Shown here: positions 1,226 to 12,632 of the stretch, piece after piece
Numbering within the stretch: the first letter of the stretch is position 1
Layout: each line of letters starts with the position of its first letter
Assembly (NCBI RefSeq): GCF_023028105.1
Contig: NZ_CP095491.1
Span: 1,054,001 to 1,118,000, forward strand
DNA length: 64,000 nt
Direction of reading: 5' to 3'
Source: Halosolutus gelatinilyticus
GTDB lineage: Archaea > Halobacteriota > Halobacteria > Halobacteriales > Natrialbaceae
Translations under genes and position numbers: made by a program
Notes under the pieces: model-generated
The model's database searches: none
What the model was told of the DNA's origin: nothing
What the model saw: the letters and a program-made list of their open reading frames with translations, nothing else

Positions 1226-2698
1226 ATGAGTGGCCGCGTCTCATCGATACGGAGCAGAATCGACGGGCTCGACGAACTGCTCCACGGCGGACTCGGTACC
1301 GGCCGGATGTATCTCGTCCAGGGAAAACCGGGAACGGGAAAGACGCTACTCGGAATGCACTTCCTTGAGGAAGGGGTGAGAAACGACGAGACGGTGCTAT
1401 TCATTCACGGCGAGGAGTCGCGCGAGGAGGTCCTTGCGAACGGGAGGGCAGTGGGCGTCGACATCTCCGACGCGGAGTTTCTCGATCTGGGGCCTGACTC
1501 CGACTTCTTCACGGAGGATTACTCGTACGATCTGGTGAACCCGAGCGATATCGAACGGGAACGGTACACCCGTGATATCCACGACGCAATTCGGGAGATC
1601 GACCCGAACCGCGTCGTCATCGATCCGATCACGCAGTTGCGCTACGTCGAGGCGAACGACCACCAGTTCCGGAAGCGGATCCTCTCGTTCATGCGGTTTC
1701 TCAAACAGGGGGAGGTGACCGTCATCACCACGGCGACGCCGTCGCCGGACCAGGAGTACGACATGGAGATTCGATCGCTCAGCGACGGGATCATCGAACT
1801 GGAGTGGGGCGAGAACGGACGCCGAATCGAAGTCTCGAAACACCGCGCGTTCGGACAACGCGAGGGCGATCACGGAATGGAGATCCGCGACACCGGGATC
1901 GAAGTCTATCCGCAGCTACTTCCCAGACAGAACGACCGGTCGTTCGAATCGAGTCTGCTTTGCTCCGGAATCGACGAGCTCGATGACCTGATCGGCGGCG
2001 GGTTCGACCAGCGGACCGTGACGTTCATCAGCGGGCCGACAGGGGTCGGCAAAACGTCGACCGGAACGCAGTTACTGACGGAGGCGGCCGAGAACGGCCT
2101 CAGTTCGGCGATCTATCTCTTCGAGGAGGACGCAGAGACGTACAACCATCGCTCGGAGTCGATCGGCATCCCCGTCTCCGACCTGCAAGACGACGGAACG
2201 CTCTCCGTGACCGAAGTCGAACCGCTCTCGCTCTCGAGCGAGGAGTTCGCTCACAGGGTCAAGCGGCAGGTCGATCGCCTGGACACGGACGTCGTGATGA
2301 TCGACGGGATCGACGGCTACACGGTCGCGATCCAGGGCACGGAGACGGAGTTGATACGGGAGCTCCACGCGCTCACGCGCTATCTGAAGAGCCGCGGAGT
2401 GACGGTGCTGGTGACGAACGAGATTTCCGAGATCACGGGCATCTCCGAGGCGACCAGCAGCAATCTGAGCTACGTCGCCGACAACATCATGTTCCTAAGC
2501 TACGTCGAAATGGACGGCAGCCTCCGCAAAGTTGTCGGGGTGTTGAAAAAGCGAACGGGCGGATTCGAACATACGCTCCGCGAATTCGAGCTCTCCGAGG
2601 ACGGCATTCGAGTCGGTGATTCCCTGACCGGTCTCTCCGGGATTCTCCAGGGATCGCCCCGCATCAATACCGTTTCCAGAAACGCTCGGAGCGATTGA
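1226..2698 (+). CDS. KaiC-like double RecA-domain ATPase
   Basis: 490 aa with two tandem RecA/RAD55-type domains. The first Walker A, GKPGTGKT, is at residues 33-40, followed by an EE pair in HGEESREE. The second Walker A, GPTGVGKT, is near residue 270, followed by FEEDAE. This is the architecture of cyanobacterial KaiC and its archaeal relatives. By my hand alignment to the KaiC autophosphorylation site, the S431 position is serine (S415) but T432 is tyrosine (Y416). No KaiA or KaiB gene is visible. A histidine kinase starts 35 nt after the stop, so a joint signalling role is likely. Whether it is a clock protein is unknown. Confidence 0.85.
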   Translation: MSGRVSSIRSRIDGLDELLHGGLGTGRMYLVQGKPGTGKTLLGMHFLEEGVRNDETVLFIHGEESREEVLANGRAVGVDISDAEFLDLGPDSDFFTEDYSYDLVNPSDIERERYTRDIHDAIREIDPNRVVIDPITQLRYVEANDHQFRKRILSFMRFLKQGEVTVITTATPSPDQEYDMEIRSLSDGIIELEWGENGRRIEVSKHRAFGQREGDHGMEIRDTGIEVYPQLLPRQNDRSFESSLLCSGIDELDDLIGGGFDQRTVTFISGPTGVGKTSTGTQLLTEAAENGLSSAIYLFEEDAETYNHRSESIGIPVSDLQDDGTLSVTEVEPLSLSSEEFAHRVKRQVDRLDTDVVMIDGIDGYTVAIQGTETELIRELHALTRYLKSRGVTVLVTNEISEITGISEATSSNLSYVADNIMFLSYVEMDGSLRKVVGVLKKRTGGFEHTLREFELSEDGIRVGDSLTGLSGILQGSPRINTVSRNARSD

Positions 2699-2733
2699 CC
2701 GTTTGCGACCGCCGCCAGCCGAGATCAGTACAC

Positions 2734-3876
2734 ATGAGGCCAAGCGAGTGCACTATTCAACTGCTCATCGAAGAAGCGGGAAACCGCGCCGCGGTCAGAG
2801 AACTTCTCGACGGCCGCTACGACGTCGACGTAGATCAGTCGGTCGACGAGGCCGACTGTTACCTCGTCGACGATCACACGTTTCCCGCGTACCACACCGA
2901 GCTCCGCGAGCACGTCGAAGCGAGCGATCCCGTATTTTGCCCGATCATCCTCGTTCGCCGCCCGGACAGCGCGGTTCGGATTTCGCTGCCGGACGCGGGG
3001 GATCGGGAATCACCCGTGCTCATCGACGACATCGTCGACGCGCCGATCGATCCGGATCTCCTCTTTCGCCGGATCAATACCCTCCTCGTCCGGCGCAACC
3101 AGTCGAGGGATCTGCTCCACTACATCACGCGGCTCGAAGAGTCCAACAGATCCCTCGAGCAGTTCGCCTACGCGGCGTCACACGACCTCCAGGAACCCCT
3201 GCGGATGGTCTCGAGTTACCTGCAGCTGATCGAGCAGCGCCACGGCGACGAGTTCGACGCCGACGCCGAGGACTTTCTCGAGTTCGCCGTCGATGGCGCC
3301 GATCGCATGCGCAGCATGATCGACGGCCTGCTCGAGTACTCGCGGGTCGACACGAGCGGAGAGTCGCTGGAGCGGGTCGACCTGAACGACGTGCTCGACG
3401 AGGTGCGTTCGAACCTTCAAGTGAAGATCCACGAACACGACGCCGGGATCAGCGTCGAGTCGCTCCCCCGCGTCCGGGGCGACCCCAACCAGCTCGTACA
3501 GCTGTTTCAGAACCTGCTGTCGAACGCGATCGAGTACAGCGGCGACGACCCGCCGCGGATTCGCGTTTCCGCCGAACGGGCGACTTCCGGAGCGTCCTCG
3601 GGCGATCCCCGAGACGCCGCGTCTCGAGGGGCGGCGATGTGGAACGTGGCCGTCGACGACGACGGCATCGGCATCGATGCGGACGGCCAGGAGCGCATCT
3701 TCGACGTGTTTCAGCGACTGCACAGTCACGACGAACACGACGGGACCGGCATCGGTCTCGCGCTCTGTAAGCGGATCGTCGAGCGGCACAACGGGGACAT
3801 CCGAGTCGACTCCGAACCGGGTGCGGGAGCGACGTTTACGGTTACCCTGCCCGCGATCGAGGAGTCCGACGCGTAA
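2734..3876 (+). CDS. Sensor histidine kinase with N-terminal pseudo-receiver
   Basis: 380 aa, soluble, with no membrane segment. Residues 1 to about 125 look like a CheY-type receiver with a possible phospho-acceptor Asp in LVDDHTF, but the usual acidic pair is replaced by EE and the conserved Lys by Ala (VDAPIDPDLL). The HisKA motif ASHDLQEP carries the phospho-acceptor H150. The N box (NLLSNAIEYS), G1 (DDGIGID) and G2 (GTGIGLAL) are intact. I chose ATG 2734 over the in-frame TTG at 2695, which overlaps the upstream stop and adds a basic 13-residue tail. It is probably cotranscribed with the KaiC-like gene. Confidence 0.88.
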   Translation: MRPSECTIQLLIEEAGNRAAVRELLDGRYDVDVDQSVDEADCYLVDDHTFPAYHTELREHVEASDPVFCPIILVRRPDSAVRISLPDAGDRESPVLIDDIVDAPIDPDLLFRRINTLLVRRNQSRDLLHYITRLEESNRSLEQFAYAASHDLQEPLRMVSSYLQLIEQRHGDEFDADAEDFLEFAVDGADRMRSMIDGLLEYSRVDTSGESLERVDLNDVLDEVRSNLQVKIHEHDAGISVESLPRVRGDPNQLVQLFQNLLSNAIEYSGDDPPRIRVSAERATSGASSGDPRDAASRGAAMWNVAVDDDGIGIDADGQERIFDVFQRLHSHDEHDGTGIGLALCKRIVERHNGDIRVDSEPGAGATFTVTLPAIEESDA

Positions 3877-3903: not shown

Positions 3904-4923
3904 TCATCCGAACCGATCGAGGCCCGACTGCCGACGTCGTCTCCCCGTCGGATCGGGGTCCCACGGCGTTCGCCGCGCTCGCTCGCCGTCGAGGTCGATC
4001 TCGGGGGCCGAGTCCGCCTCGTATCCCGGACACGACGGCCCGCACTCCGACCCCGCGTCGACGACGCGGTCTTTCCACTCGCAGTACGGCACCGTCGCGC
4101 CGCTCGAGTCGGCCGGTCGACAGGACGCACAGTCGGGGAAGGCGTACGTTCGCCACCCCTTCCCGTAGGCCCGTTCGGCGATTCGGCGGCGTGCGCGGGC
4201 CTTCTCTTTCGCGGAGACGACGGCGATATCGGTTTTCCCGGGGTGCGACTCGATCGGTTCGATGCCGGGGTCGGCGACCGGCAACGGCGTCGGTTCGCGG
4301 ACGACCTCGATCTCGACGGGCGGAACGCGGTCGGGAGTCCGATCGTCGGCGGTTCGAGCGGTGGACGGGCCGTCGCGGTGGATCCGCCAAACGCCGACTT
4401 CCTCGGGGATGCGGTTCAGGTGCGCGCGCGTGACGTAGCTCCCCGTCGCGAGCACGACCTCGTCGACCAGCGCGAGGCTGACGTCGGTCCGCAACTGCGC
4501 CTCGAGGTCGCCCGGCCGGCCGAGGTCGGGCTTGTTCTCGATCCCGACGATGCGATCGTACCAGTCGGGGTAGCGGGCGACCTGTCGGACGTACTCGCGG
4601 CCGGGTCGCAGTTCGCGCTCGAAGAAGCCGATCTCGAGGGCGCGCTCCGTGGCCCGGCGAGCCCGCGCCGGGTGGCAGTCGAAGGCGTCCTTCCAGTAGC
4701 GGGCGCGGCCGCTCCCGACGGCCGATTCGATCGCCGCGTCGGGGATCGTCTCCGCGGTGAGGGCGACCCGATCGGCGAACTCCGGGCCGGGATCGACGCG
4801 GACGACGTCGAGGATTCGGCCGCCGGACGCCGCCACGCTCGCGCCGAGTTGGCGGGCGACGATCCCCTCGCGTCGCTCCTCGAGGGCGGCACAGAGGGCG
4901 AGTTCGAACGCGAACTCGGACAC
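3904..4923 (-). CDS. Conserved haloarchaeal protein, nuclease-like with a C-terminal Cys cluster (probably DUF5787)
   Basis: 339 aa from GTG at 4921-4923, whose product opens VSEFAFELALC; upstream codons are Arg-rich and atypical. I recognise this N terminus as the haloarchaeal family I believe is DUF5787. RILD (D39) and YDRIVGIENKPDL (D123, E129-N-K131) resemble the D and E-x-K motifs of PD-(D/E)XK nucleases. Near the C terminus, CASC, then PYC, then ECGPSC form a multi-cysteine cluster like the Fe-S or zinc clusters of Cas4/AddB-type nucleases. The nuclease reading is my inference. It is convergent with the histidine kinase (27 nt gap). Confidence 0.75.
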   Translation of the reverse strand: MSEFAFELALCAALEERREGIVARQLGASVAASGGRILDVVRVDPGPEFADRVALTAETIPDAAIESAVGSGRARYWKDAFDCHPARARRATERALEIGFFERELRPGREYVRQVARYPDWYDRIVGIENKPDLGRPGDLEAQLRTDVSLALVDEVVLATGSYVTRAHLNRIPEEVGVWRIHRDGPSTARTADDRTPDRVPPVEIEVVREPTPLPVADPGIEPIESHPGKTDIAVVSAKEKARARRRIAERAYGKGWRTYAFPDCASCRPADSSGATVPYCEWKDRVVDAGSECGPSCPGYEADSAPEIDLDGERARRTPWDPDPTGRRRRQSGLDRFG

Positions 4924-7209: not shown

Positions 7210-8205
7210 TCAGGGCCGCGGTGCGGCCTTCTGGAGCGCGGTTTCGGCGATGTTGCCGCCGTAGTCGGCGCTCCGAGAGAGGGAGTCGAGGATCAACCCC
7301 AGCGACTGGGCCTGGACGGGATCGAGTTCGCGGAGCATGTCGTCGATACGGCGGGTGTGTTCGTCGATGTCGAGGACGGACTCGAGGGCGTCGTGACCGA
7401 GATCGGTCGCCTCGTCGCTCTCGTCGGCGAACAGCGCGTCCATCGACTTCTCGAGGAGCGCCGACGCGTCCGCGTGGAGATCGAGCAGGGCGCCGGCGAC
7501 GTCGTCGGGGATCGCCTCGAGTTTGAGCGCGAGCTGACTGATCTTGACGGCGTGGTCCGCGACCCGTTCGAGCTGGCGGGCGCTCGAGTGGTAGTCGAAA
7601 CAGTCCTCCCGGGAGACGCCGAGTCCTTCGGCCGCACCCGGCGATCGGAGCGCCGCCCGGAAGATCCGGGAGACGACGAGCCAGAGCCGATCGACGTCGT
7701 CGTCGCGGGCGATGACGTCCCGCGCCATATCGTCGTCGTTCTCGACGAGGGCGGTGATCGCGTCCTCGAGCATCGACGCGGCGATCAGGCGCATGCGCGT
7801 CACGGCGGTGACGATCGACAGCTCCGAGGAGTCGAGCAGGTCCTGGACGACGACGCCGTCGGCCGATTCGTCGACGACTTCGACGCCGATGAGGCCCTGG
7901 ACCGCGGTCCGGATCGACTGGCGCTGGTCCGTGGAGATCCGATCGGCTTCGAGCCGGATGAGATCGAAGCCGCTGACGTACATCGTCAACACGGCCCGGA
8001 TCAACTGCTCGCCGTCGAGGCTCGAGACGTCGAGCGTTCCTTCCTGTCGATCGCTCTCCCGCTGTGGCGTCACGATCAACGTGTCCGCCTGCGAGTAGAT
8101 TTCGACGGTCGTCCCGTTACTGACGTCGTTCTCCGTCGCCCAGGTCTTCGGAAGCGAGACGGTAAAGGTCGACCCACCGGTGACCTGTACCTTGCGCGTC
8201 TCCAT
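7210..8205 (-). CDS. AbrB/SpoVT-PhoU-type phosphate regulator
   Basis: 331 aa from ATG 8205; a minus-strand TATA-like TTTATG at 8230-8235 lies about 28 nt upstream, matching a leaderless start. The N terminus METRKVQVTGGSTFTVSLPK is an AbrB/MazE-like swapped-hairpin DNA-binding domain. From about residue 100, two PhoU-like helical repeats follow (D-R-D-D-D-V-D-R-L and ARQLERVADHAVKISQLA). It diverges from pstS across a 640-nt control region. Its paralogue lies at the far end of the pst operon (14218-15222). It probably senses PstSCAB/PhoU status and controls PHO promoters. Confidence 0.85.
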   Translation of the reverse strand: METRKVQVTGGSTFTVSLPKTWATENDVSNGTTVEIYSQADTLIVTPQRESDRQEGTLDVSSLDGEQLIRAVLTMYVSGFDLIRLEADRISTDQRQSIRTAVQGLIGVEVVDESADGVVVQDLLDSSELSIVTAVTRMRLIAASMLEDAITALVENDDDMARDVIARDDDVDRLWLVVSRIFRAALRSPGAAEGLGVSREDCFDYHSSARQLERVADHAVKISQLALKLEAIPDDVAGALLDLHADASALLEKSMDALFADESDEATDLGHDALESVLDIDEHTRRIDDMLRELDPVQAQSLGLILDSLSRSADYGGNIAETALQKAAPRP

Positions 8206-8733
8206 AGGGGACCGTCTAGACTCCGGGAACATAAACTAACTAGATTCTATAGAGTGATTCCGATTCAACGTTATACGTTCGTGTGGGGGATTCAGACGGT
8301 AGTTATCGGTAGTCTACGAAACGTTCACATACGCCACCGAAAGCATGACAATGTCCATCTATATATACCAGGTGTCGCTCGTTCTATCGGCATCGCCCGA
8401 GTGTCGAGTCGCGCTCGGACCGACGACCCGGGGCCGACCCGGACGGCGGACTCTCGAACGCGCGTCGGCCAGCAGCAATTCCTCGACCGGCGATTCCGGC
8501 CGGTAACGATCCGGCAGATCCGTGCCGATCGAAAGCCCTCGTGCGATCGAACGAGTGGCGGCTCTCCGAGAGTACGCGCGCGCGTTCGTGCCGTCGAGCA
8601 CGCGACGACGACGTCTATCGGCAGTTACGGCGACGATCGATCGGGGGAAAGCGGCGCGAGTAGCGCGGGATCCACCCCGTCGGAGCGGATCATCGATGCA
8701 GCTGCCGGAACGCTCGATCGAGAGTAGACGACC

Positions 8734-8749
8734 TACGTACGGGTACGTA
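8734..8749. promoter_or_regulatory. Operator-like inverted repeat upstream of pstS
   Basis: TACGTAC-GG-GTACGTA is a 7-bp inverted repeat with a 2-bp centre, about 100 nt before the pstS start. Its position and symmetry suit a dimeric DNA-binding regulator such as the AbrB-PhoU proteins encoded on either side. No binding is shown. Confidence 0.45.
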
Positions 8750-8774
8750 CCCCACTGGTCCGGTACAGCGGAAA

Positions 8775-8822
8775 ATATAGAGATCCGAGTCAAGATATAT
8801 AGATATTAGCATCGTATTTATG
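8775..8822 (+). promoter_or_regulatory. pst promoter: paired ATATAGA(G/T)AT repeats and TATA-like box
   Basis: Two near-identical decamers, ATATAGAGAT (8775-8784) and ATATAGATAT (8797-8806), are 22 bp apart, two helical turns. They precede TATTTATG (8815-8822), which lies about 28 nt upstream of the pstS ATG. Paired cis elements called P-boxes have been described for Halobacterium pst promoters; whether these are equivalent is inference. Confidence 0.5.
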
Positions 8823-8845
8823 TAAACCGTCCAATCCCCCGAGTG

Positions 8846-9832
8846 ATGACGGACAACCAGTTCGGGCGTTCGGTGGGTACGGTTTCACGACGGACATTCC
8901 TCGCCACGAGCGGGGCCCTGGGAACGGTCGCGATCGCGGGCTGTTCCGAAACCGATGCGAACAACAACGAGAGCGAGGGCGACGGCAGCGGCGGCAGCGA
9001 ACTCTCCGGTGAAGTCCGAATCACGGGTTCGAGCACCGTCTACCCGATCTCGAACCAGATGGCCGAGCGGTTCATGGACGAGAACCCCGAGGTGAACGTC
9101 ACCGTCGACTCGACGGGCAGCGGCGGCGGGTTCCAGAACCACTTCTGCCCCGGCGACTCGGACATCAACGGCGCCTCCCGACCGATCAAGGAGGAGGAGG
9201 AGAGTCAGTGTAGCGACAACGGCGTCACGCCGATCGAGATGCAGGTCGCCGGCGACGCGCTCACGATGGCCGTCAGCAACGACAACGACTGGGTCGACTG
9301 CATGAGCTACGACGAACTGACCCAGATCTGGAAGCGCGACGGCGCCGAGATGTGGTCCGACGTCAATTCCGACTGGCCGGACGAACCGTTCGACCTCTAC
9401 GGCCCGGACACGACCTCGGGCACGTACGACTGGTTCACCGAGAACGTCAGCGACGGCACGCACACGGCCGACCACGAGGGGACCGAGGACGACAACATCA
9501 TCATCGAAGCCCTCCAGCAGAACCCGTACGCGATGGGCTACTTCGGCTACGCCTACTACGCGGAAAACGAGAGCAGCGTGAAGGCCCTCGAAATCAAGAA
9601 GGAAGAGGGCGGCGACTGCGTCGCACCGAGCCTCCAGGCCGCCAGCAACGGCGACTACCCGATGGCCCGACCGCTGTTCATCTACCCCTCGGAGGAGGCC
9701 CTCGAGCGCGAGGAGGTGCAGGCGTTCGTCGAGTTCTACATCGAGAACACCTCGAAGGACTGGATCGCCGACGAGGTCGGCTACGTGCCGGCCAACGACG
9801 ATCTCGTCCAGGAGAACCTCGACAAGATCTGA
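8846..9832 (+). CDS. pstS: PstS phosphate-binding lipoprotein
   Basis: 328 aa. ATG 8846 follows the TATA-like box by about 28 nt; the GTG directly upstream is less likely. The signal SRRTFLATSGALGTVAIAGC has a twin-arginine pair (R15-R16) and a lipobox Cys (C33), so the protein is probably Tat-exported and lipid-anchored. An Asn/Gly/Ser/Glu-rich linker follows. The mature protein has the hallmark ITGSSTVYPI near its start and TSGTYDWF in the middle, both contributing to phosphate binding in the PstS family. It is the first gene of a tight pst operon and supplies phosphate to PstC/PstA. Confidence 0.93.
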   Translation: MTDNQFGRSVGTVSRRTFLATSGALGTVAIAGCSETDANNNESEGDGSGGSELSGEVRITGSSTVYPISNQMAERFMDENPEVNVTVDSTGSGGGFQNHFCPGDSDINGASRPIKEEEESQCSDNGVTPIEMQVAGDALTMAVSNDNDWVDCMSYDELTQIWKRDGAEMWSDVNSDWPDEPFDLYGPDTTSGTYDWFTENVSDGTHTADHEGTEDDNIIIEALQQNPYAMGYFGYAYYAENESSVKALEIKKEEGGDCVAPSLQAASNGDYPMARPLFIYPSEEALEREEVQAFVEFYIENTSKDWIADEVGYVPANDDLVQENLDKI

Positions 9833-9869
9833 TCGGGACCCATCGACCGTTCGAACCGTTATCGAGTTG

Positions 9870-9874
9870 TTTTT
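9870..9874 (+). terminator. T5 tract between pstS and pstC, possible partial terminator
   Basis: The 87-nt gap between pstS and pstC is T-rich (TTGTTTTTCGATTATTTCG), unlike the nearly gapless joints further down the operon. A leaky archaeal terminator here would give more binding protein than permease, as usual for such systems. This is inference from base composition. Confidence 0.35.
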
Positions 9875-9919
9875 CGATTATTTCGTAATGACAACCCACA
9901 CCCACGTTACATTCCTGAA

Positions 9920-10858
9920 ATGAGTACCGAATCGACGACCCCCGACCTGACCAGATCGAGGCGCGGAGAAACCACGATAGAACGACTGTACAAGTGGGCG
10001 CTGTTCGGCTGTGCCGCGCTGACGGTGTTCGTGACGGGCGCGATCATCGTCACGCTGACCGCCGACGCCGTCAAGTTCTTCGAGGAGGTCGACGCCTTCG
10101 AGTTTCTGACCGGAACGGTCTGGAAACCCTCGAGCCGCCAGGAGTTCGGCGTCCTCCCGCTGGTGACCGCGACGCTCACCGTGACGATCATCTCGGCACT
10201 GGTCGCCATCCCGATCGGGACGGCCGCGGCGGTCTTCCTGAGCGAGTACGCGAGCGACCGAATGCGATCGGTGCTCAAGCCCTCGCTCGAGGTTCTCGCG
10301 GGGATTCCGACCGTCGTCTACGGCTACCTGGCGCTCGTCTACCTGACGCCCTGGCTTCGCGCGGCCGGCGCGCCGCTGAACTTCCAGAACCTGCTCAGCG
10401 CCTCGATCATGGTGGGCATCCTGATCATCCCGATGGTCTCGTCGCTGTCGGAGGACGCGATGAGCGCCGTCCCGGACGAACTCCGACAGGCCGGGTACGG
10501 CCTCGGGGCAACCAAGTACGAGGTGTCGACCGACATCGTCATCCCGGCCGCCGCCTCCGGCATCTTTTCGTCGTACATCCTCGCGATCTCGCGAGCGATC
10601 GGCGAGACGATGGTCGTCGTGGTGGCCGGCGGGATGAGCGCACGGATGCTCGACACGTCGAATCCGTTCGCTCACGTCTTCGAATCGGGAGAGACGATGA
10701 CCGCCGCGATGGTCCACGCCGTCTCGAGCGACGCGGTCGGGGGGACCCCGGAGTACTATGCGATGTTCGCGATCGGGTTGACCCTGTTCTCCATCACGTT
10801 CGCGATGAACCTGATCAGCAATCGAATCGCCGCACGCTACAAGGAGGACTACCAATGA
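9920..10858 (+). CDS. pstC: PstC phosphate ABC transporter permease
   Basis: 312 aa with about six transmembrane helices. The family sequences LAGIPTVVYGYLAL and the EAA-like loop ELRQAGYGLGATKYEVS are present, followed by AISRAIGETMVVV. The EAA loop contacts the ATPase PstB. The stop overlaps the ATG of a 20-codon mini-ORF (ATGA, 10855-10858) that leads into pstA. It forms the membrane channel together with PstA. Confidence 0.92.
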   Translation: MSTESTTPDLTRSRRGETTIERLYKWALFGCAALTVFVTGAIIVTLTADAVKFFEEVDAFEFLTGTVWKPSSRQEFGVLPLVTATLTVTIISALVAIPIGTAAAVFLSEYASDRMRSVLKPSLEVLAGIPTVVYGYLALVYLTPWLRAAGAPLNFQNLLSASIMVGILIIPMVSSLSEDAMSAVPDELRQAGYGLGATKYEVSTDIVIPAAASGIFSSYILAISRAIGETMVVVVAGGMSARMLDTSNPFAHVFESGETMTAAMVHAVSSDAVGGTPEYYAMFAIGLTLFSITFAMNLISNRIAARYKEDYQ

Positions 10859-10917
10859 GAGCTGATCGCCGACCCGCGACGGAATCGGCGGACCCGACGA
10901 CGGAGGTGCGTCACTGA
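10855..10917 (+). other. 20-codon mini-ORF bridging pstC and pstA
   Basis: ATG at 10855 overlaps the pstC stop as ATGA. The frame encodes MRADRRPATESADPTTEVRH and ends in TGA at 10915-10917, whose A starts the pstA ATG (TGATG). The frame differs from both neighbours. It may serve only to carry ribosomes from pstC to pstA by termination-reinitiation; a functional peptide is not supported. Confidence 0.35.
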
Positions 10918-12632
10918 TGGCGACGGCGGACGAGCGAACCCGGCAGTGGTTCGGTTCCGAGGGCCAGATCAGCCAGCTTCGGGGAGCGGTGTTCAAGTAC
11001 TCCTGTCTCGGCGCGACGCTGCTCGCGCTCGCGCTGGTGTTTGTGTTCCTCCTGTACGTGGCCAACGACGCTATCCAGCCGGCGTCGGCCTCGACGGGCT
11101 GGCTGCTGACGGTCGCCGCGACGATCGTCCTGCCCGCGATCCTGCTGGCCGCCTACTACTACTTCCGCGACACGCGGGCGGGAGAGGTGGCCTACATCTC
11201 GTTCGGCCTGCCGATCGTGGCGACGCTGCTCGCGGGCGGCGCGCTCGTCGTCTTCAGACACGTCGTCAGCCCGCACGAGTGGTTCGCGCTGGTTATCGCG
11301 ACGGGCGTCGCGTACGGCGGTATCACACTTCACGCCCGGGAGCGGGGCGCCGCGTCGGCCCTGGAGCAGTTCGCGGTCAGGGTCGGCGTTCCGATTCTCG
11401 CCGTCGTCGGCGTACCCGGGTTCGCCGTCGACCGGACGATCTCGACGCCGATCCTCGGACAGGAACTGTTCCACCTGTCGTTTTCGGTTCCGACCGTGCT
11501 GCCGAGCCTGCGGGGGCTCATCCTCTCGCTGCCGATGTTGCCGATGGACTGGCTCTCGCTGTTGCTGGCGTTCACGCTCCCGGTCGCCGCCGTCGCGGCG
11601 CTGCGCGTCCGGGCCGTTCGAGAGAGCGCTCGGGACGCGGAGCTCGTCGCCGGCCTCATCGTCGGCGTGGCCGCGGTCGGGTTCGTCGCAGCACCGCTGG
11701 TCGGCGTCGTCGCGACGACGTGGGTGATCGTCGCGACGGTCGTCGTCGCCCCGATCGTCCTGTACCTCGAGTCCGTTCTTCGACGGGGCGAAGGGGTCGC
11801 CGGCCTGGCGTTCCCGCTCGTCGTCGGCGGCGGCGCGATCGTCGCCGCACTCGTCGTCCAGACGCTCGGTTACGCCGGCCCCGACCTCTGGCTCGACTGG
11901 CAGTTCCTGACCGACAACGCCAGCGTGAACCCGGAGGACGCGGGGATCTACCCCGCCCTCGTCGGGTCGATAATGATCCTGATCGTCGTCGCCGTCGTCG
12001 CGTTCCCGATCGGCGTCGGCGCCGCGATCTACCTCGAGGAGTACGCCCCCAGTCAGGGCCGCGGGAGTAAACTCGTCGAACTCATCGAGATCAACATCGC
12101 CAACCTCGCGGGCGTTCCGTCGGTGGTCTACGGCGTCCTCGGTCTCGCGGTGTTCGTCCGCGGGGTCGGGCTGTCGTCCGGGATCGTCATCGTCGGCGGG
12201 CTAACCGTCGCGTTGCTGATCTTGCCGATCGTCATCGTCTCCGCCCAGGAGGCGATCCGCGCGGTTCCCGATTCGCTGCGCCGGGCCTCCTACGGCATGG
12301 GCGCGACGAAGTGGCAGACCGTCCGCAGCGTCGTCCTGCCGCGGGCGGCGCCCGGGATCCTCACCGGGACGATCCTCGCGCTCGGCCGCGCGATCGGCGA
12401 GACGGCGCCCCTGTTGATGATCGCGATCGCGGCCGTCGTCCGCCTCTCGCCGGACTCGTTTTTCAGCCTGACCGGCGCGATGCCGCGACAGATCTTCACC
12501 TGGTCGACGGAGATCAAGCCCGAGTTCCGCTACGGCGTCCTCGCGGCGGGGGTCGTCACGCTGCTCGTCGTGATGCTGATGATGAACGGGACGGCGATCG
12601 CCCTTCGAAATAGGTACCAGCGACAGGAGTGA
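10917..12632 (+). CDS. pstA: PstA phosphate permease with large N-terminal membrane extension
   Basis: 571 aa, about twice the length of typical bacterial PstA (near 280-300 aa). Residues about 340-571 form the permease domain: NLAGVPSVVYGVLGL, EAA loop SLRRASYGMGATKWQTV, and ALGRAIGETAPLLM. Residues about 25-330 add roughly eight extra hydrophobic helices with no recognised domain. The start overlaps the upstream mini-ORF stop. pstB follows after three bases. The permease function is secure; the role of the extension is unknown. Confidence 0.9.
   Translation: MATADERTRQWFGSEGQISQLRGAVFKYSCLGATLLALALVFVFLLYVANDAIQPASASTGWLLTVAATIVLPAILLAAYYYFRDTRAGEVAYISFGLPIVATLLAGGALVVFRHVVSPHEWFALVIATGVAYGGITLHARERGAASALEQFAVRVGVPILAVVGVPGFAVDRTISTPILGQELFHLSFSVPTVLPSLRGLILSLPMLPMDWLSLLLAFTLPVAAVAALRVRAVRESARDAELVAGLIVGVAAVGFVAAPLVGVVATTWVIVATVVVAPIVLYLESVLRRGEGVAGLAFPLVVGGGAIVAALVVQTLGYAGPDLWLDWQFLTDNASVNPEDAGIYPALVGSIMILIVVAVVAFPIGVGAAIYLEEYAPSQGRGSKLVELIEINIANLAGVPSVVYGVLGLAVFVRGVGLSSGIVIVGGLTVALLILPIVIVSAQEAIRAVPDSLRRASYGMGATKWQTVRSVVLPRAAPGILTGTILALGRAIGETAPLLMIAIAAVVRLSPDSFFSLTGAMPRQIFTWSTEIKPEFRYGVLAAGVVTLLVVMLMMNGTAIALRNRYQRQE

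Follow-up and report, generated by a model that had tools for sequence, protein, structure and literature searches.

DUF5787-A, a haloarchaeal protein family of no assigned function in Pfam, is likely to be a PD-(D/E)XK DNA nuclease tethered through the sliding clamp to replication forks or to repair patches. This reading draws on features computed here: the predicted fold class, the conservation of the motif residues, a C-terminal PIP motif like that of FEN1, near-universality, and a place in the core genome. Judged from its sequence and structure model, the protein is built of a PD-(D/E)XK core, an inserted winged helix, a four-cysteine (Cys4) cluster, and a PIP box (Table 1).

The gene and its product

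The open reading frame (ORF) lies in the window, by which we mean the whole 64,000-nucleotide stretch of Halosolutus gelatinilyticus DNA that was analyzed, and an earlier note, made from the sequence alone, had assigned it to a haloarchaeal protein family. That assignment holds: the translated minus-strand ORF matches the Pfam family DUF5787 (PF19100) with 342.5 bits and an E value of 3e-102, against a gathering cut-off of 25, and a profile search of NCBIfam matched no family. The same genome encodes a second DUF5787 copy (locus L002) that scores 416.6 bits to PF19100 and is 38% identical to the window protein over the match. We refer to the window gene and its orthologs as type A and to the second DUF5787 paralog as type B.

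Table 1. Coordinates of the type-A gene, its predicted parts, and other genes of the window, with the type-B locus given in its own numbering
Feature	Positions	Strand	Remarks
DUF5787 type-A gene	3904-4923	minus	339 aa; GTG start 4921-4923 (VSEF read as MSEF); TGA 3904-3906
Nuclease core part 1, residues 1-46	4786-4923	minus	Helix 1 (E7, C11), strands 1 and 2 (R24, Q25, D39)
Winged-helix insert, residues 62-117	4573-4740	minus	Between nuclease strands 2 and 3; from model and structure matches
Nuclease core part 2, residues 122-183	4375-4560	minus	Strand 3 (E129-N-K131-P-D), helix (Q143, D147), D154 just ahead of strand 4
Four-Cys cluster C265, C281, C294, C298, residues 265-302	4018-4131	minus	Predicted metal site
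PIP box QSGLDRFG, residues 332-339 (read from sequence)	3907-3930	minus	Terminus of a low-confidence, probably flexible tail
Lactamase-fold gene	270-1100
KaiC-like two-domain ATPase	1226-2698		Name from sequence
Histidine kinase	2695-3876		Name from sequence; overlaps the KaiC-like ORF by 4 bases
AbrB/PhoU-like gene, then PstS-, PstC-, and PstA-like phosphate transport genes	7210-12632		Names from sequence
L002: NUDIX gene	3374-3811	minus	Type-B locus
L002: DUF5787-B	1399-2451	minus	Type-B locus
L002: DUF5797	867-1370	plus	Type-B locus

A predicted PD-(D/E)XK core interrupted by a winged helix

An AlphaFold2 model of the window protein, computed from a 38-row alignment, had a mean pLDDT of 84.8 and a pTM of 0.73, with most of the core above 90. 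The N-terminal half of the model is composed of helix 3-16, strands 21-27 and 37-45, an insert, strand 122-130, helix 140-150, and strand 155-160, and the insert contains helices 49-55, 62-65, and 85-97 followed by strands 101-106 and 109-114. When the insert, which places a winged helix between strands 2 and 3, is left out, the order of elements is alpha-beta-beta-beta-alpha-beta. This is the order of the PD-(D/E)XK core rather than that of an unrelated fold. D39 is found near the start of strand 37-45, E129 is at the end of strand 122-130, and K131 comes just after that strand; from this topology, D39 and E129/K131 would adjoin in an antiparallel hairpin, as the PD-(D/E)XK motif needs. The strand-like contexts proposed in the earlier note for D39, D123, E129, and K131 agree with the model, in which these residues are in or beside predicted strands.

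A total of 999 chains, including PDB candidates from Foldseek, were aligned to the model with VIA-align. The best row was 3dnx (SPO1766), with a Z of 11.7, an rmsd of 3.7, and 143 of 146 residues aligned; 3dnx is a small one-domain protein whose function is unknown, and we take it to belong to the MmcB group. Further rows included 1xmx (Z 9.8), PaqCI (9.7), NucS (2vld; 9.3), EndoMS (5gke; 9.2), Can2 (8bao; 9.2), Card1 (9.1), BamHI (7.5), and Bax1 (7.0). Among the best 20 rows, 16 are titled as nucleases, presumably all of the PD-(D/E)XK kind. A second group in the lower rows comprises many winged-helix proteins that cover only residues ~62-117, with Z of ~6-6.7, and this restriction to the insert is an independent sign that the insert may be a DNA-binding winged helix.

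Foldseek searches with the model gave no match with E below 0.08 against the PDB and none with E below 0.001 against viral models, and no sequence link to any nuclease was found in Pfam, in NCBIfam, or by hmmsearch of PDB sequences. A profile of haloarchaeal NucS, the sole superfamily member compared by hhalign, scored no better than column-shuffled controls whether or not the insert was retained, and kinship of DUF5787 with NucS by sequence was rejected. Because Foldseek by itself was not significant and a sequence-level nuclease link is missing, membership in the PD-(D/E)XK superfamily rests on the predicted structure together with the motif, from which we assign the fold class of DUF5787-A with high confidence. 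The model of type B was poor (pLDDT only 41.5), so the fold of type B rests on its sequence.

Conservation of the active-site residues in two clades

Conservation was assessed in sequences picked by BLAST from 194 loci, after loci with no stop (L157), too short an ORF (L158 and L160), or no match (L159) had been dropped. The resulting 147 type-A and 43 type-B sequences collapsed to 136 and 42 distinct sequences, which are 46-83% and 30-38% identical to the window protein, respectively. D39, W121, E129, N130, Q143, and D147 are each present in 136/136 type-A and 42/42 type-B sequences, and K131 in 135/136 and 42/42, with the qualification that, for E129-K131, the 80 named loci carry some selection bias, since they had been found through the patterns [GA][IV]ENKPDL or ERAY[GE][KR]GW; the loci outside these 80 were found by tblastn or HMM and no pattern was used. 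A single type-A sequence, L165, has N in place of K131 (ENN), and its PIP box is intact.

The earlier note had picked out D39, D123, E129, and K131 as nuclease residues. All four positions are correct, and D39, E129, and K131 are conserved as proposed, but D123 is not: it is Asp in just 60/136 type-A and 10/42 type-B sequences and is therefore no motif residue. The conservation of E129 and K131, the invariant D...E-x-K, the predicted fold, and the structure matches all favor the PD-(D/E)XK-type nuclease that the note had suggested, and we consider it quite likely that DUF5787-A is an active DNA nuclease.

A four-cysteine cluster unlike that of Cas4 and AddB

The cysteines of the C-terminal region are also conserved: C265, C281, and C298 are each found in 136/136 type-A and 42/42 type-B sequences, and C294 in 135/136 and 42/42. 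The one type-A sequence without C294 (L139, from a metagenome-assembled genome) has truly lost this residue of the C-terminal pair; a further C-S-C is present close to the first Cys, and the PIP box is kept. The pLDDT of the region in the model is ~61-79. We regard the near-invariant four-Cys site as a predicted metal site and lean toward zinc over an Fe-S cluster.

Part of what the earlier note said of the terminal Cys set thus stands, namely the four near-invariant positions, but the second cysteine of "CASC," C268, is dispensable (82/136 type A, 0/42 type B), and the proposed resemblance to Cas4/AddB nucleases is not supported by Cys number and spacing. Cas4/AddB Fe-S nucleases are defined by one N-terminal Cys and a C-terminal C-x2-C-x5-C. 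The spacing in DUF5787 is C-x15-C-x12-C-x3-C, with all four residues C-terminal. Cys11, for its part, is present in 126/136 type-A sequences (the remainder being 5 Ala, 4 Ser, and 1 start not resolved) and 41/42 type-B sequences, and its replacement by Ala or Ser in 9/136 type-A sequences indicates that it is dispensable for the four-Cys site, which argues against a Cas4/AddB arrangement. Comparisons of the Cys region with DUF7140 (best E 0.0013, below that family's cut-off) and with CDGSH proteins (E 0.44 in a PDB sequence search) are leads only.

A C-terminal PIP box

The window protein ends in RRRRQSGLDRFG. A PIP motif at this position is present in 136/136 type-A sequences, at identities to the window protein as low as 46%, versus 0/42 type-B sequences. 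The form of the motif in haloarchaea is given as QxxLxxFx in the portion consulted of a review of Haloferax volcanii replication and repair (PMC7776575), and the general form as QXXhXXaa in the corresponding portion of a review of archaeal PCNA-binding proteins that covers NucS, Nre, and TIP (PMC4929162). Within type A, position 332 is Q, position 335 is L or I, and position 338 is F, W, or Y, each in 136/136 sequences, while positions 333 (S 99, A 25, T 7), 337 (R 99, Q 30), and 339 vary. The aromatic residue is followed by 0-6 residues in 135/136 sequences, the tail of L171 being longer, and R315 and W321, just ahead of the PIP box, are also invariant in type A. As a background, the motif was found at the C terminus of 8/5,246 other ORFs of at least 90 aa in the 80 named loci, most of these ORFs being spurious.

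Other proteins of the same lineage provided controls. FEN1 of the same genome ends in QTGLDRWT, and haloarchaeal FEN1 has the PIP motif in 30/30 loci examined (39 genomes with a match); RNase HII of the same genome ends in QTGLGQFSNSSTNS (QTGLGQF plus 7 residues), and NreA in QSNLDAFSNVQ (QSNLDAF plus 4). Haloarchaeal NucS had a C-terminal PIP box in 0/30 loci examined (L148 and L201-L229; 35 genomes with a match). With a PIP box on type A and none on NucS, the haloarchaeal clamp tag would be carried not by NucS but by a different PD-(D/E)XK-like protein. We note that NucS_C is absent from 4/39 class genomes. A further, weak match to NucS_C (L149; 25.3 bits) occurs in the genome of the window, within an ORF of 365 aa that has another C-terminal ending.

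On its sequence, we read QSGLDRFG of DUF5787-A as a PCNA-binding PIP box, and binding of PCNA by the protein is very likely. The PIP box is the strongest functional clue, and it narrows what had been a loose suggestion of a nuclease to a specific replication-repair hypothesis; it had been overlooked in the earlier note, as had Cys11 and the winged-helix insert.

Distribution and gene neighborhood

A search with the window protein found a match in 387/391 genomes of the class and in 375/377 of the good assemblies among them. Two copies are the rule, a single match being seen just in G162, G205, G328, and G377; the copy in G205 is B-like and truncated by the contig end. Four genomes of the small-genome families f5 and f11 (G021, G218, G286, and G382) gave no match, also when the alignment profile was used. 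Over 294 genomes of the phylum, PF19100 gave 52 genomes above the cut-off, each with 2-3 matches and each from the same family or order as the genome of the window, and H. volcanii is among the species in which the DUF5787 family is present. One candidate relative from outside the Halobacteria (G579; E 2.9e-4) was rejected: the match is in the Cys-rich part of a methionyl-tRNA synthetase-like ORF, which we take to be a methionyl-tRNA synthetase.

No relative was encoded in the phage records or in the viral contigs, and the one plasmid record with a match, the 828-kb replicon of Natronorubrum bangense, has a partial match annotated as DUF5787. The best E value in a search of PADLOC defense families was 0.052. 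DUF5787-A is a core chromosomal gene, and the defense role raised in the earlier note is at odds with its near-universal, syntenic, chromosomal occurrence and with the lack of a PADLOC or phage match; DNA repair, which the same note had offered as the alternative, is the likelier field.

Synteny was examined in the 80 named loci, where contig ends lower the counts. Downstream of type A, a metallo-beta-lactamase-fold gene (Lactamase_B_2) is found in 64/80 loci and is convergent in 64/64. The upstream cluster is divergent and includes eIF2 gamma (74/80), PIN_9 (62/80), rpoE (62/80), and a kinase-like gene (60/80); members of the eIF2 gamma cluster are on the strand opposite to type A in 64/64 cases. 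PIN_9 and Lactamase_B_2 were identified by family search, and the names eIF2 gamma, rpoE, and kinase-like were given from sequence. Because no conserved gene is in an operon with type A, the neighborhood names no pathway for it. In the window, type A is separated from the lactamase-fold gene by the KaiC-like and histidine-kinase ORFs. Matches to these two ORFs occur in 1 and 3 of the 80 named loci, respectively, which suggests that the pair was inserted in this lineage into an otherwise conserved gene order. HVO_0697-HVO_0700 were considered as the H. volcanii neighborhood and rejected: HVO_0699 is eIF2 alpha, and eIF2 gamma is HVO_1901. Near type B, a NUDIX gene occurs in 17/19 loci and DUF5797 in 16/19, and a nucleotide-sanitizing link for type B is possible on these gene contents.

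Discussion

We infer for DUF5787-A a catalytic activity, DNA rather than RNA as its substrate, PCNA binding, a bound metal, and a pathway, and these would fit together as follows. The C-terminal QxGLDxF peptide would dock on loaded PCNA, and the flexible tail would let the body of the protein reach DNA adjoining the clamp. There, the inserted winged helix and the four-Cys module may hold a particular DNA structure or lesion, and D39, E129, and K131, with Q143 and D147, would bind Mg2+ and cut the strand. DUF5787-B shares the catalytic and Cys residues of type A but lacks the PIP box; it could be either a subunit partnering type A or an unlinked sister enzyme. For DUF5787-A itself, the examples of NucS and FAN1 would make a strand- or structure-specific endonuclease behind the fork the likeliest role. 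A more elaborate arrangement, in which types A and B form a core, heterodimeric PCNA-directed endonuclease that has taken over the cutting that NucS performs with the clamp at mismatches, lesions, or fork structures in other archaea, fits the missing PIP box of haloarchaeal NucS; we hold it to be a doubtful, tentative extension.

Among known systems, NucS/EndoMS shares the PD-(D/E)XK core with DUF5787-A, and Pyrococcus abyssi NucS is described as having a C-terminal PIP box in the portion consulted of the PCNA-binding protein review (PMC4929162). DUF5787-A differs from NucS/EndoMS in that it has neither a match to NucS_C (PF01939) nor profile similarity, in that it would have no N-terminal OB/Sm-like domain, the modeled core beginning at residue 3, and in having a winged helix within the core and a Cys cluster. 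FEN1, a core flap nuclease bound by PCNA, ends in a PIP box of the same type (QTGLDRWT, compared with QSGLDRFG in DUF5787-A), but its fold class is PIN/XPG, unlike that of DUF5787-A. FAN1 and VRR-type repair nucleases of eukaryotes have a PD-(D/E)XK fold and accessory domains that differ from those of DUF5787-A. FAN1 is reported to need PCNA and RFC in the part consulted of PMC10438374. NreA, of an unrelated family, shares the C-terminal PIP box, and the portion consulted of PMC4929162 describes it as an archaeal PCNA-dependent factor of unknown activity whose C-terminal PIP box is needed for repair.

Several other readings have to be weighed against a clamp-bound nuclease. DUF5787-A could be a PCNA-bound sensor or scaffold for DNA structures, in which the residues of the nuclease fold bind metal and DNA that stays uncut and the winged helix does the recognizing. 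The ExK is indeed in an unusual context, E-N-K and then P-D, and the winged helix is modeled as a confident separate domain; we think this unlikely all the same, given that D39, E129, K131, Q143, and D147 show almost no variation in either clade, even though type-B sequences are just 30-38% identical to the window protein. Pseudo-nucleases usually lose their active-site residues. A further reading takes the C-terminal motif for a structural tail rather than a PIP box, and the protein for a nuclease unrelated to PCNA; it would accord with the invariant R315 and W321, which may pack the tail on the body. This is quite unlikely in view of the motif's close likeness to the FEN1 C terminus of the same lineage, its near-terminal position in 135/136 sequences, and the retention of Q, L, and the aromatic residue while positions 333, 337, and 339 vary.

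The conserved gene order around eIF2 gamma, PIN, rpoE, and the metallo-beta-lactamase gene (74, 62, 62, and 64 of the 80 loci, some of which lie on short contigs) could instead tie DUF5787-A to RNA processing, as a nuclease working with that cluster or with the lactamase-fold gene, but these neighbors are on the opposite strand (64/64 for the cluster, 64/64 convergent for the lactamase-fold gene) and so share no operon with it, and the PIP box and winged helix would point to DNA; we judge an RNA-processing role very unlikely. Highly improbable is a Cas4/AddB-type Fe-S nuclease of defense or spacer acquisition, a reading that starts from the Cas4/AddB resemblance proposed in the earlier note. 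Such a nuclease shares with DUF5787-A the nuclease fold and C-terminal cysteines, and the mostly conserved Cys11 would suit it, but the number and spacing of the cysteines differ, no dependence on an N-terminal Cys is seen (Cys11 being Ala or Ser in 9/136), and the gene is a core one in 387/391 genomes, with no PADLOC match better than an E value of 0.05 and no phage or viral-contig relative.

We found no paper in the open-licence literature on DUF5787, PF19100, or the motif peptides, and the portions consulted of PMC4929162 and of the H. volcanii review PMC7776575 do not mention DUF5787. As far as these partial sources go, accounts of archaeal replication and repair seem to have passed over a near-universal haloarchaeal gene whose product combines a complete nuclease active site with a clamp tag like that of FEN1. 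We think that DUF5787-A is probably an overlooked nuclease of DNA replication or repair and not a defense gene. The idea is directly testable, since H. volcanii is genetically tractable and holds the DUF5787 family, and it bears on a puzzle in that organism, where deletion of nucS had no phenotype according to the part consulted of PMC7776575.
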